From assembly GCA_030037955.1 (NCBI GenBank), contig JASHPT010000081.1:1-38119 (forward strand): DNA of 38,119 nucleotides. The letters are read 5' to 3'. This document shows, one piece after another, positions 20,104 to 24,740 of this stretch. The notes beneath the pieces are model-generated. The model had not been told where the DNA came from, searched no databases, and worked only from the letters and a program-made list of their open reading frames with translations. Each line of letters begins with the position of its first letter. The stretch's first letter is position 1. Position numbers and translations under genes: made by a program. This DNA is from Thermoplasmata archaeon (GTDB taxonomy: Archaea; Thermoplasmatota; Thermoplasmata; Lutacidiplasmatales; UBA184).

Positions 20104-20111
20104 CGTTTATG
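20104..20111 (+). promoter_or_regulatory. Archaeal TATA box for PAC2 gene
   Basis: CGTTTATG, about 26 nt before GTG at 20133. Confidence 0.6.
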
Positions 20112-20132
20112 CCGGGAGGCACTGTCATCGCC

Positions 20133-20918
20133 GTGGCGCTGACTCCGCCGGAGGAGATCCGGATCGTCGACATCCGCGACGAATCGCTCACCGGTTCGAT
20201 GATGATCGTCGGATTTCCGACGCACGGTCTCGTCGGGTCGGTGGCGGCTTCGTACCTCGTGCATGCGTTGGACATGACCCCGGTGGCCTACGTGGCCAGC
20301 GAAGGGTTCCCGCCCACGGTCATCATGGAGGGGGGCGCCGTCAGCTCGCCCGTCCGGATGTACGCGAGCAAACTCGTCTGCGGCGTAGACCGGAAGTGTG
20401 ACCAGCTGGTCGTGGCCATTTCCGACATCCAGCCTCCGGTCGAGCTCCTCAATGGACTGGGTCGTTCGCTGCTGGACTGGGCCGAGCGCAAGGGCATCCA
20501 GATGGTGGTCGCGGTCGAGGGTCAGCCGGTGGACGAAGGGGTCCGCGGCGATGCCCGGGTCGTGGCGATGGCGAACCGGCCCGCCGTACCGGTGATCGAA
20601 AAGCTCGGGTTCGAGCCGGCGAACGGCGTGATCACCGGCTTCGCCGGCGGGATGTTGCTGTCGGCCTTGGGGCGGCACCTGCCGGTGCTGTGTCTGGTGG
20701 CCCAGGCCCACAAGGACTTCCCGGACGCCCGAGCCGCGGCCAAGGTCATCGAGTCGATCAATCCGCTCGTTCCGATGCTCGCGCTGGACACGAAGCCGCT
20801 CCGCGAGAAGGCTCGACTGCTCGAGGCCCAGATGCGGAAGTCGCTGGACGACCAGAAGAAGTCGATGACGAGCATGCGGCAGATCGAGACCGAAGGGCCG
20901 GGTGAGATGTATCGCTGA
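20133..20918 (+). CDS. PAC2-family (proteasome assembly chaperone-like) protein
   Basis: GSMMIVGFPTHGLVGSVAASYLVHALDMTPVAYVASEGFPPTVIMEGG; GVITGFAGGMLLSALGRHLPVLCLVAQAHKDFPDARAAAKVIE; GTG at 20133 about 26 nt after CGTTTATG (ORF-track start lies inside the TATA box). Confidence 0.87.
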   Translation: MALTPPEEIRIVDIRDESLTGSMMIVGFPTHGLVGSVAASYLVHALDMTPVAYVASEGFPPTVIMEGGAVSSPVRMYASKLVCGVDRKCDQLVVAISDIQPPVELLNGLGRSLLDWAERKGIQMVVAVEGQPVDEGVRGDARVVAMANRPAVPVIEKLGFEPANGVITGFAGGMLLSALGRHLPVLCLVAQAHKDFPDARAAAKVIESINPLVPMLALDTKPLREKARLLEAQMRKSLDDQKKSMTSMRQIETEGPGEMYR

Positions 20919-21408
20919 CACGGCGCCGCGGACGACGGCCGGCCCGGTGCCACCGGTTTCTCCCGGAACGCAGCTCCGTCGCTTCCACCCCCACGATATC
21001 CCGGTGATCGCGGACATCGTCCGGGATTCCTTGCACGAGAACTACGATCAGTCGCTCTACCTCTCGCTGGGCCAGCAGTGGCCGGACGGGTTCCTGGTGG
21101 CGACCGACGCGCTGGGCCGGCCCGTCGGCTTCCTGCTCGGCGTGATGCAGGTGGACCGGGAAGGTCGGATCCTGATGTTCGCCGTCGACCGGGACCACCG
21201 GAGCCGGGGCGTCGGCACACAGCTCATGCAGGCCTTCCTCGACCGGTGCCGGACGCAGGGGCTCCGCCGGGTGACGCTCGAGGTCCGGGTCAGCAACGCG
21301 ACGGCGATCCGTTTCTACACGGACTTTCGGTTCTCCGTCGTCGACCTGCTCCGAACCTACTACTCGGACGGGGAAGACGGCTACCAGATGGCGCGCGACA
21401 CCGGCTGA
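20902..21408 (+). CDS. GNAT-family N-acetyltransferase
   Basis: ILMFAVDRDHRSRGVGTQLMQAFLDRCRTQGLRRVTLEVRVSNATAIRFYTDFRF (RimI/Naa10-like acetyl-CoA motif). Confidence 0.88.
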   Translation: MRCIADTAPRTTAGPVPPVSPGTQLRRFHPHDIPVIADIVRDSLHENYDQSLYLSLGQQWPDGFLVATDALGRPVGFLLGVMQVDREGRILMFAVDRDHRSRGVGTQLMQAFLDRCRTQGLRRVTLEVRVSNATAIRFYTDFRFSVVDLLRTYYSDGEDGYQMARDTG

Positions 21409-21429
21409 GGCCGATTCGCCGCCGGCCAA

Positions 21430-21439
21430 ATCATATAGG
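21430..21439 (+). promoter_or_regulatory. Archaeal TATA box for CBS-HPF gene
   Basis: ATCATATAGG about 32 nt before ATG at 21470. Confidence 0.6.
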
Positions 21440-21469
21440 GTGTCCCGGTTCCCGAGGCCGGTACCTATC

Positions 21470-22729
21470 ATGGCGGCTCCGTGGCCCACCGCCGGCGACA
21501 TGATGACCGCCCGCCCGATCACGTTGCCCCGCGAGGCCCCGCTCTCGCAGGCCCTGGGCATCATGCGGGGGCGACGCATCCACGAGATCCCGGTGGTTCA
21601 GAACCGCCGAGTCATCGGGATGGTCACCCTCGATTCGATCGCCCGTCGGGTAAATCTCCCGCTGTCCACGAAGATCGACCGATTGATGCTGTTGCCCCCG
21701 ATCGTGTCGCCCGCCACCGGATACGCCGAGCTGAGCGAGCAGCTCCTGGCGACCGGCATGCGTGCCGCGCCCGTGACGGGGAGCCGCGGCGAGTTGCTCG
21801 GGGTCGTGTCTCGTACGGACCTCGTGCGTCGCCTTCCCCGGATCCCCCCGCTCGCCGATCATCGGGTCGAGGAGGTGACGGCCCCGTTGAACCTGATCCT
21901 GCAGGAGCGGGACCCGGTCCGCACGCTCCTCGGACAGGAGGCCCTTCGACACCTCGAAACCCATCCCCTCCCGGTCGTCGACCGCCGGGGAACGCTCTCG
22001 GGCGCGGTCGGGGTCGCAGACCTCGGCGAGGTGCTCTGGCGCCCCGTCGCCCAGGGCCACCGGGACGTGGAGAATCGCGGCACGGCCACCGAGGTCGAGA
22101 TCCGCACGATCATGCACAGCCCGGCCGTCACGGTACAGCGCGACACGACGACCGGGGCGGCGGCGCGTCTCATGAGCGACGAGCACGTCTCGAGCGTCTT
22201 CGTCGAGGAGAACGGCCGACCCGTGGGCATCGTCTCCCAAGCCGACCTGATCGGCCTCGCGGTCGGTGGTGGCGCAGCCGGCGGCGGCGCCTTGGGAGAT
22301 GTCTTCGTCCAGATCCAGGGCCTGCGGGCCTCCGCCGATCCGGCGATCCTCTCCGAGATCGACCAGGTGATCGCCCGGGGCCTGCGGCGGGTAGCCCGGT
22401 ACGTACACCCGGTGATGCTGACGGTGCACTTCTCTCCCCATGCCGCCCACCGGTCCGGCGAGGCCTCCGTGGAGGGCCGGCTCAACACGGACCGGGAGAT
22501 CCTCTACGCGTCCCGGACGGGATGGAACCTCTACGCGGCGCTCAACGAGATGCTGGACGAGCTGGAGTCGCAGGCCCGACGGCAGAAAGAGGAGCGTCGG
22601 GACGCGACGCATCGCACCTCTCCGCGCCTGGTCGCCGAAGCGCTCGAAGAGACGTCGGCCGACCCGGAGCTCGAGGCCCGGATCCGTTCCGCCACGCGCG
22701 ACGAGCGCCGTCGGCGCCGCCATCGCTGA
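21470..22729 (+). CDS. Fusion of four CBS domains with a C-terminal HPF/YfiA-like (ribosome hibernation) domain
   Basis: CBS repeats starting MTARPITLPREAPLSQALGIMRGRRIHEIPVV; C-terminal VFVQIQGLRASADPAILSEIDQVIARGLRRVARYVHPVMLTVHFSP...VEGRLNTDREILYASRTGWNLYAALNEMLDELESQARRQKEERR resembles HPF/YfiA; ATG 21470 about 32 nt after CATATAGG. Confidence 0.75.
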   Translation: MAAPWPTAGDMMTARPITLPREAPLSQALGIMRGRRIHEIPVVQNRRVIGMVTLDSIARRVNLPLSTKIDRLMLLPPIVSPATGYAELSEQLLATGMRAAPVTGSRGELLGVVSRTDLVRRLPRIPPLADHRVEEVTAPLNLILQERDPVRTLLGQEALRHLETHPLPVVDRRGTLSGAVGVADLGEVLWRPVAQGHRDVENRGTATEVEIRTIMHSPAVTVQRDTTTGAAARLMSDEHVSSVFVEENGRPVGIVSQADLIGLAVGGGAAGGGALGDVFVQIQGLRASADPAILSEIDQVIARGLRRVARYVHPVMLTVHFSPHAAHRSGEASVEGRLNTDREILYASRTGWNLYAALNEMLDELESQARRQKEERRDATHRTSPRLVAEALEETSADPELEARIRSATRDERRRRRHR

Positions 22730-22753
22730 GGTTTCAGGAGGTCGGAAAGGACC

Positions 22754-23167
22754 ATGATGCCCGGGGGCCGGATGAACGAGCGCCAGATGCGGATGATGAT
22801 GAAACGGCTCGGGATGACGACCGAGCCGATGGAGAACGTCGAGGAGGTCATCATCCGCACCAAGGACCAAGAGCATGTCATCGAGTCCCCGGAGGTCACG
22901 GTCCTCACCGTCCAGGGGGTCCGGACGTACCAGGTTGTTGGCGAGGCCAAGCAGCGGCCCCGAACCGCCGGCGGAGCCGGCTCGGCGACGCAGACCCCGG
23001 CCACCGAGGTAGGTCCTGCGAGTCCCCCGGACGAGGACATCCAGCTTGTGATGGATCAGACGGGTGCGTCCCGAGGGGAGGCGATCCAGGCGCTCGAGGC
23101 CGCGGGCGGCGCCCCGGCCGAGGCCATTCTGTCGCTCCTCTCGCGTCGGGGCACCGGTGACCGGTAA
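22754..23167 (+). CDS. nac: Nascent polypeptide-associated complex alpha-like protein (NAC + UBA)
   Basis: MNERQMRMMMKRLGMTTEPMENVEEVIIRTKDQEHVIESPEVTVLTVQGVRTYQVVGEAKQ plus C-terminal UBA DIQLVMDQTGASRGEAIQALEAAGGAPAEAILSLLS. Confidence 0.93.
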   Translation: MMPGGRMNERQMRMMMKRLGMTTEPMENVEEVIIRTKDQEHVIESPEVTVLTVQGVRTYQVVGEAKQRPRTAGGAGSATQTPATEVGPASPPDEDIQLVMDQTGASRGEAIQALEAAGGAPAEAILSLLSRRGTGDR

Positions 23168-23657: not shown

Positions 23658-24740
23658 GTGACCGCGGAAGGTTCGGCACTACCCATCGAACCGGGGCTGG
23701 CGCCACTCCTCGCCGAGGCCGAGAACTCGGCCGCAAGCGCTGCGTACCGGGTCTTTCCTCGGCTCGGGCCCGACCTCTACCGCACCCTTCGGGAGTCCGG
23801 TGTCCGACGGATCGCTCTGCAGGTCCCGGCCGGCCTGACTCGCGGGGCCCGAGAGATCGCGGACACCCTGCGTACCGAAACCGGAGCGGACGTCCTCCTC
23901 GCCGCGCGGGCATGCTTCGGGGCGTGTGACTTTCCGGCTCCGGACGAGGTTCCGGGCGCCGACGCTCTCGTCCTGCTCGGCCACGCGCCAATCCCCAATG
24001 TTCGGCTCGCGCTGCCGACCTACTTCGTCGAGATGCGGCATCCAGGGGGCGACCCCGACCGGCTGGCCCGTCTCCTGGTCGACCGGAAACTCCCAAGCCC
24101 CCTGGGCCTCGTATGCTCGATCCAGCACCTGGACCTGGTCGACCCGCTCGTCGTAGCCGCTCGGCGCGTGGGCATCGAGTTCCTGTTCGCCGAAGGGGAC
24201 CGGAGACTAGGGTACGCGGCCCAAGCCCTGGGATGCAATTATACGTCGGCCGAACGGGTCGCCGACCGGGTCCGCGGGTTCGTCTTCCTGGGAACCGGAG
24301 ACTTCCACCCGCGAGGACTCGCGCTTGCAGTAGACCGGCCCGTGTGGACCGTCGATCCGCTCACGGCCCAGGTCGAACCGCCAATCGACCGTGCCTCCCT
24401 CGTCCGGGATCGCTTGCTGAGGATCGCGAGCTGCCGCGACGCCCGGAGATGGGGCGTGCTCGTCTCCAGCTTTGCCGGACAGAACCGGAGCCCGATGGCG
24501 CTGGCCCTCGTCCGCAAGGCACGGGAACGGGGTCGGGAGGCGGAGACCCTGGTCTTCGCTCGCCTCGATCCGGCCGACCTCATTGGCCGCGACTTCGACG
24601 CGTACGTGAATACGGCTTGTCCCCGCATCGCCCTCGACGACGCGGCACTCTACCCTCGGCCCATGCTCACCCCGCCGGAATTCCTGCAGGCCATCGGTGA
24701 ACGGCCCCTGGACGAGTATCGCTTCGACACCTACCATTGA
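23658..24740 (+). CDS. dph2: Diphthamide biosynthesis protein Dph2 (2-(3-amino-3-carboxypropyl)histidine synthase)
   Basis: RRIALQVPAGLTRGAREIADTLRTETGADVLLAARACFGACDFP; later CSIQHLD and NTACPRIALDDA cysteines; GTG start about 31 nt after ACGTTTAG. Confidence 0.9.
   Translation: MTAEGSALPIEPGLAPLLAEAENSAASAAYRVFPRLGPDLYRTLRESGVRRIALQVPAGLTRGAREIADTLRTETGADVLLAARACFGACDFPAPDEVPGADALVLLGHAPIPNVRLALPTYFVEMRHPGGDPDRLARLLVDRKLPSPLGLVCSIQHLDLVDPLVVAARRVGIEFLFAEGDRRLGYAAQALGCNYTSAERVADRVRGFVFLGTGDFHPRGLALAVDRPVWTVDPLTAQVEPPIDRASLVRDRLLRIASCRDARRWGVLVSSFAGQNRSPMALALVRKARERGREAETLVFARLDPADLIGRDFDAYVNTACPRIALDDAALYPRPMLTPPEFLQAIGERPLDEYRFDTYH

Follow-up and report, generated by a model that had tools for sequence, protein, structure and literature searches.

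HibA of Pyrococcus abyssi (PAB0961), described in April 2026 by cryo-EM, ITC, and genetics, binds 70S ribosomes and inhibits in vitro translation; its HPF domain is placed in the 30S mRNA channel, and its CBS module is found at the PTC of the 50S subunit, at uL5, or at the L1-stalk (PMC13324472). Deletion of hibA in Thermococcus barophilus lowered the stationary-phase 70S level by about 60% and delayed regrowth, and the HibA architecture was reported in 47% of archaeal genomes (PMC13324472). In Haloferax, HVO_2384, described as combining CBS with a ribosome-hibernation domain, was found together with the acetyltransferase variant Pat2 Y154A, the evidence being co-purification and not a ribosome assay (PMC12607858). 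CBS modules bound to archaeal ribosomes are also represented by Dri of Pyrobaculum calidifontis (PDB 9e6q/9e7f) and by SriA-SriD of Methanosarcina acetivorans (PDB 9znf, 9zni, 9zng). Our literature search found no paper on SriA and none on PDB entry 9L96, a 406-aa 'CBS domain-containing protein'.

The window, i.e., the whole stretch of 38,119 nucleotides analysed here, belongs to a 1.88 Mb assembly of 168 contigs with a completeness of about 90%. Its positions 21470-22729 (plus strand) contain an uninterrupted frame of 419 codons, encoding a single intact protein with four CBS domains and an HPF/RaiA domain according to the open reading frame list, Pfam, homologues, and the structural model (hereafter hibA). 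The start at 21470, which had been chosen in the first-pass annotation, was right, with the ATG sharing its alignment column with an ATG in 24 of 24 family relatives. A GTG at 21440 was dropped as the start in favor of this positionally conserved ATG. The minus-strand ORF of 587 aa lying antisense across HibA and the downstream NAC gene was also rejected, since it is Arg/His/Gly-rich, as is typical for antisense frames in high-GC DNA.

The protein begins with CBS1 (residues 8-62, 21491-21655, plus strand; Pfam and model) and CBS2 (residues 67-126, 21668-21847, plus strand), the latter carrying the motif GVVSRTD with D117 (conservation counts and model). CBS3 (residues 130-190, 21857-22039, plus strand; model and alignment) is followed by a CBS3-CBS4 loop (residues 191-208, 22040-22093, plus strand), located where HibA has its 'PTC loop' (residues 190-207 in P. 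abyssi; PMC13324472). This loop is the lowest-confidence part of the model and has a length similar to that of the P. abyssi HibA loop. CBS4 (residues 209-267, 22094-22270, plus strand) contains the motif GIVSQAD with D259, as seen from conservation counts and the model. Next come a Gly/Ala-rich linker (residues 268-277, 22271-22300, plus strand; sequence and model) with the sequence VGGGAAGGGALG at about residues 265-276, the HPF/RaiA domain (22301-22615, plus strand; Pfam, model, domain-only fold, and Foldseek), and a C-terminal tail (residues 383-419, 22616-22726, plus strand) with the motif DPELEARI and a basic end, delimited by alignment. The Pfam CBS model (PF00571) scored 123 bits (E 5e-36), with just three CBS stretches passing individually; the fourth is seen in the AlphaFold model and in the end-to-end alignment with the four-CBS P. 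abyssi HibA. The Ribosomal_S30AE/HPF model (PF02482) reached 30.6 bits with the whole protein and 33.2 bits with the C-terminal part alone, above its curated cut-off of 23.7 bits. The layout proposed in the first-pass annotation, with four CBS repeats, a linker, and an HPF/YfiA-like C-terminal domain, is thus borne out by Pfam, model, and alignment; the linker is real, though the family alignment confines it to the genus of the window and its nearest sisters.

The AlphaFold model, built on 54 homologues, had a mean pLDDT of 83 and a pTM of 0.70 and included four CBS units, with low confidence at residues 195-203 and at the linker (269-276). Its HPF-type domain consists of a strand (279-283), a helix (291-308), three strands (314-323, 332-340, and 344-351), and a helix (354-382), and the C-terminal tail adds two more helices. 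In the whole-protein Foldseek search, the best 50 matches were all of the CBS/AMPK type and HibA was absent among these (structure library ending 2026-04-08); therefore, the HPF part was folded and searched separately. Folded alone, it gave a pLDDT of 88 and a pTM of 0.81, and its best 38 matches in the PDB were all HPF, YfiA/pY, or chloroplast pY (E 1.2e-7 to 1.3e-3), so the C-terminal region does match the HPF fold. The domain is near-neutral in overall charge. The CBS module matched ribosome-bound CBS modules, namely those of the SriA/SriB complex (9znf) and of Dri (9e6q), with Foldseek E-values down to 2e-19; AMPK gamma was matched as well.

A profile of 54 Thermoplasmata homologues searched against the PDB had P. 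abyssi HibA as its top match (E 9.9e-58), with profile positions 6-374 aligning with residues 4-379 of the 392-aa protein (PDB 9SR9 and seven further entries); the second profile match was 9L96 (E 1.7e-43). The single-sequence PDB search again placed P. abyssi HibA on top (E 3e-16), with its HPF part barely matched (1.6 bits), and the isolated HPF-domain profile matched it only at E 0.009. The identity between the window protein and P. abyssi HibA is 24%. Both proteins (PDB 9SR9, 9SRA-9SRF, and 9T7H for P. abyssi) have four CBS domains followed by HPF/RaiA, a CBS3-CBS4 loop, D259 in CBS4, and R337, T340, and W352 in the HPF core (window numbering). They differ at D117 in CBS2, where P. abyssi has Ala, and in CBS3, where the window protein has Gly and P. 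abyssi has Thr; in addition, the window protein has the Gly-rich linker, and its C-terminal tail exceeds that of P. abyssi HibA by about 30 aa. Two archaeal-specific insertions in the HPF domain are regarded as a HibA trait; in the alignments, the interstrand loops of the window protein look close in length to those of P. abyssi.

Other relatives share only parts of this arrangement or vary it. The 9L96-type protein (PDB 9L96, 9L98, 9L9C, 9L9V) resembles the window protein in its CBS array and C-terminal HPF-like domain, differs in that a long insertion separates CBS3 from CBS4, and is a HibA homologue. Haloferax HVO_2384, another HibA homologue, likewise shares the CBS array and the C-terminal HPF-like domain. 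Dri has two CBS modules and no HPF domain, whereas the window protein combines one four-CBS module with HPF; the Sri chains are apparently CBS-only, judged by their length (270-339 aa) and naming. Bacterial HPF/RaiA/YfiA proteins have the C-terminal fold and Pfam family in common with the window protein and lack the CBS module. TIGR00741, the NCBIfam equivalog for bacterial HPF/YfiA, was not reached (34.8 bits against a cut-off of 40.9), i.e., the fold is shared and the equivalog is not. From architecture and profile match, we assign the window gene to the HibA family of ribosome-hibernation factors with a probability of about 0.9. Against this assignment count the 24% identity to P. abyssi HibA, the poor match of the HPF part in the single-sequence and isolated-domain comparisons, the TIGR00741 score below cut-off, and the near-neutral charge of the domain. 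The CBS-HPF architecture is therefore not new, being that of HibA as published in April 2026 (PMC13324472), and the caution expressed on novelty in the first-pass annotation was justified.

The aspartate of the CBS motif makes the ribose contact. Of the 54 Thermoplasmata sequences, 51 have D117 of CBS2 and 53 have D259 of CBS4; two adenylate sites, at the CBS2 and CBS4 motifs, are therefore plausible for Thermoplasmata HibA. The P. abyssi protein binds one nucleotide per CBS module, at CBS3/4, and its isolated CBS module (HibA-CM) has Kd values of 12 uM for AMP, 65 uM for ADP, and 113 uM for ATP (PMC13324472). It had been suggested earlier that the window protein couples adenylate energy charge to ribosome silencing. 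In the most direct form of such a switch, AMP or ATP on the CBS module would itself set ribosome affinity, and this we consider unlikely. It agrees with the conserved aspartates and with nucleotide binding by HibA-CM, and the second site, intact in Thermoplasmata and altered to Ala in P. abyssi, could add a response missing in P. abyssi; however, 5 mM AMP or ATP left the ribosome-bound conformations and class distribution of the P. abyssi protein without appreciable change (PMC13324472), and ligand binding by the window protein is deduced from its motifs. The authors of the P. abyssi study leave the regulation open (PMC13324472). The suggestion is thus half supported, by nucleotide binding in P. 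abyssi and not by an effect of nucleotides on ribosome binding, and a switch from adenylate charge to silencing is possible but unproven. It also leaves out that in P. abyssi the adenylate-binding CBS module is more than a sensor and forms part of the structural plug on the 50S subunit (PMC13324472).

The gene order of the window between 20109 and 24740 is PAC2, RimI-like GNAT, HibA, NAC, NUDIX, and Dph2, and it is conserved in the family. By Pfam and loci comparison, the neighbors on the plus strand include a PAC2-family proteasome assembly chaperone (20109-20918), a RimI-like GNAT acetyltransferase directly upstream (20902-21408), the nascent polypeptide-associated complex (NAC) gene adjoining hibA downstream (22754-23167), and Dph2, which acts in diphthamide synthesis on EF2 (23658-24740). 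The neighbors of hibA are thus co-translational and proteostasis genes. NAC lies downstream of hibA in all 22 family loci, and GNAT lies upstream in 18 of the 21 with enough contig, the exceptions (L083, L085, and L087) belonging to one genus (g4). Outside the family of the window, the loci comparison found no hibA linkage, barring GNAT homologues: one about 1.5 kb from hibA in opposite orientation in two genomes of the same order, and a weak one 3 kb from hibA in one further genome belonging to the class. A TATA-like element, AAATCATATAG, occurs on the plus strand at 21428-21438, 32-42 nt before the ATG (found by inspection, without a significance test), and an AT-rich element of this kind was seen by inspection about 25-42 nt before the hibA ATG in most family members (L003-L026). 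No clear Shine-Dalgarno sequence was seen on inspection of the upstream regions of hibA in the family, and a Shine-Dalgarno-like AGGAGGT is located between hibA and the NAC gene (22736-22742, plus strand). The position of the TATA-like element near the ATG, the lack of a clear Shine-Dalgarno sequence, and the AGGAGGT before NAC therefore suggest, by inspection only, that transcription starts anew at hibA, giving a nearly leaderless message on which NAC comes next.

The query had a match in all 41 genomes searched (that of the window and 40 relatives), nearly full length in 39 of them; in the remaining two, contig boundaries interrupt it, with the gene spread over contigs in G003 and truncated by a contig end in G036. 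The closest named loci are those of Thermoplasmata soil MAGs, e.g., SubAcS15-31 (75% identity) and AcS5-34 (54%), both listed under Candidatus Lutacidiplasmatales (PMC9287336). Judged by these relatives of the gene, the window most likely comes from this order. In the genome of the window, hibA is a single-copy gene and no other HPF protein was found. Two or three genes with an HPF domain occur in certain other Thermoplasmata, with pairs about 1.4 kb apart in G329 (C29), G356 (C4), and G284 (C3, C4); these pairs are possibly tandem HibA duplicates. With the profile of the HPF part, 113 of 243 genomes sampled from the whole phylum were positive; among the genomes listed, all of the same class but one had the domain, and the listed misses fell mostly in other classes. 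At E 0.01, PF02482 fails to detect the HPF domain in 13 of the 54 members, while the family profile detects it in such sister genera; therefore, Pfam-based surveys undercount HibA. Loss of the domain in sister genera was ruled out, as the family profile recovered it in these genera (E 1e-34 to 1e-39) though Pfam was silent.

These data bear on the reading in which the main role of the protein has moved elsewhere, for example to CBS-type regulation of transcription or to work with DNA replication proteins, the HPF domain being vestigial. The stand-alone four-CBS protein HhpR is a transcription regulator, and Thermococcales HibA was recovered in replication-protein pull-downs (PMC13324472); several sister genera also fall under the Pfam HPF threshold. 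Nevertheless, such a shift is very improbable given that the HPF fold and the key residues G284, H320, R337, T340, and W352 are largely kept across the class, that the family profile finds the domain strongly in precisely the low-Pfam sister genera, and that the neighbors of hibA are translation genes. An accidental fusion or assembly error joining a CBS gene to an HPF gene, for which nothing speaks except the 168-contig state of the source genome, is refuted by near-full-length homologues of identical domain order in nearly every genome of a sample spanning 22 genera and by the same CBS-HPF architecture in published structures. The fusion itself, as assumed in the first-pass annotation, is real.

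Among Thermoplasmata HibA proteins, the family of the window stands out by its C-terminus. After K376, 33-49 residues follow in the family of the window versus 5-26 in 29 other Thermoplasmata sequences (alignment). The tail motif [DE]PELEx[RK][IL] is conserved in this family, frequently with a basic end, and is absent from other Thermoplasmata HibA proteins. The C-terminus of P. abyssi HibA sits at the channel by which mRNA exits, close to an SD:antiSD duplex (PMC13324472), and the longer tail of the window family may therefore extend deeper into this channel. At the sequence level, the lineage-specific traits are the long tail with [DE]PELEx[RK], the intact CBS2 motif, the TATA-like element, and the conserved gene order. 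A more specific proposal, in which Thermoplasmata HibA with two adenylate sites (CBS1/2 and CBS3/4) might answer energy charge unlike the P. abyssi protein, and the Lutacidiplasmatales tail helix ([DE]PELEx[RK], basic end) would enter the exit channel for mRNA close to the anti-Shine-Dalgarno region, is put forward tentatively and is rather unlikely as a whole.

Ribosome silencing, as presumed earlier, is supported because the protein belongs to the HibA family and P. abyssi HibA binds 70S ribosomes and inhibits translation. By analogy with the P. abyssi and Thermococcus barophilus proteins, we infer that the orthologue in the window would bind ribosomes, inhibit translation, and preserve 70S particles. 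Under starvation or stress, the C-terminal HPF domain would occupy the mRNA/tRNA channel of the 30S subunit, and the four-CBS disk with the CBS3-CBS4 loop would occupy the tRNA sites of the 50S subunit (PTC, P/E, and L1 stalk). HibA would thereby keep the 70S ribosome joined, inactive, and protected, and would depart once mRNA and tRNA are available again. The CBS module would bind adenylates, with AMP preferred, and this binding probably adjusts the availability or release of HibA, which is a proposal even for P. abyssi.

With this locus, the range of a recently described archaeal hibernation factor widens to an uncultured group of acid-soil archaea. The intact second CBS motif provides a natural comparison for asking if HibA is under adenylate control. 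A lead on HibA regulation comes from the conserved linkage with NAC and a RimI-like acetyltransferase; the co-purification with a GNAT in Haloferax hints likewise (PMC12607858), and acetylation may be linked to HibA.
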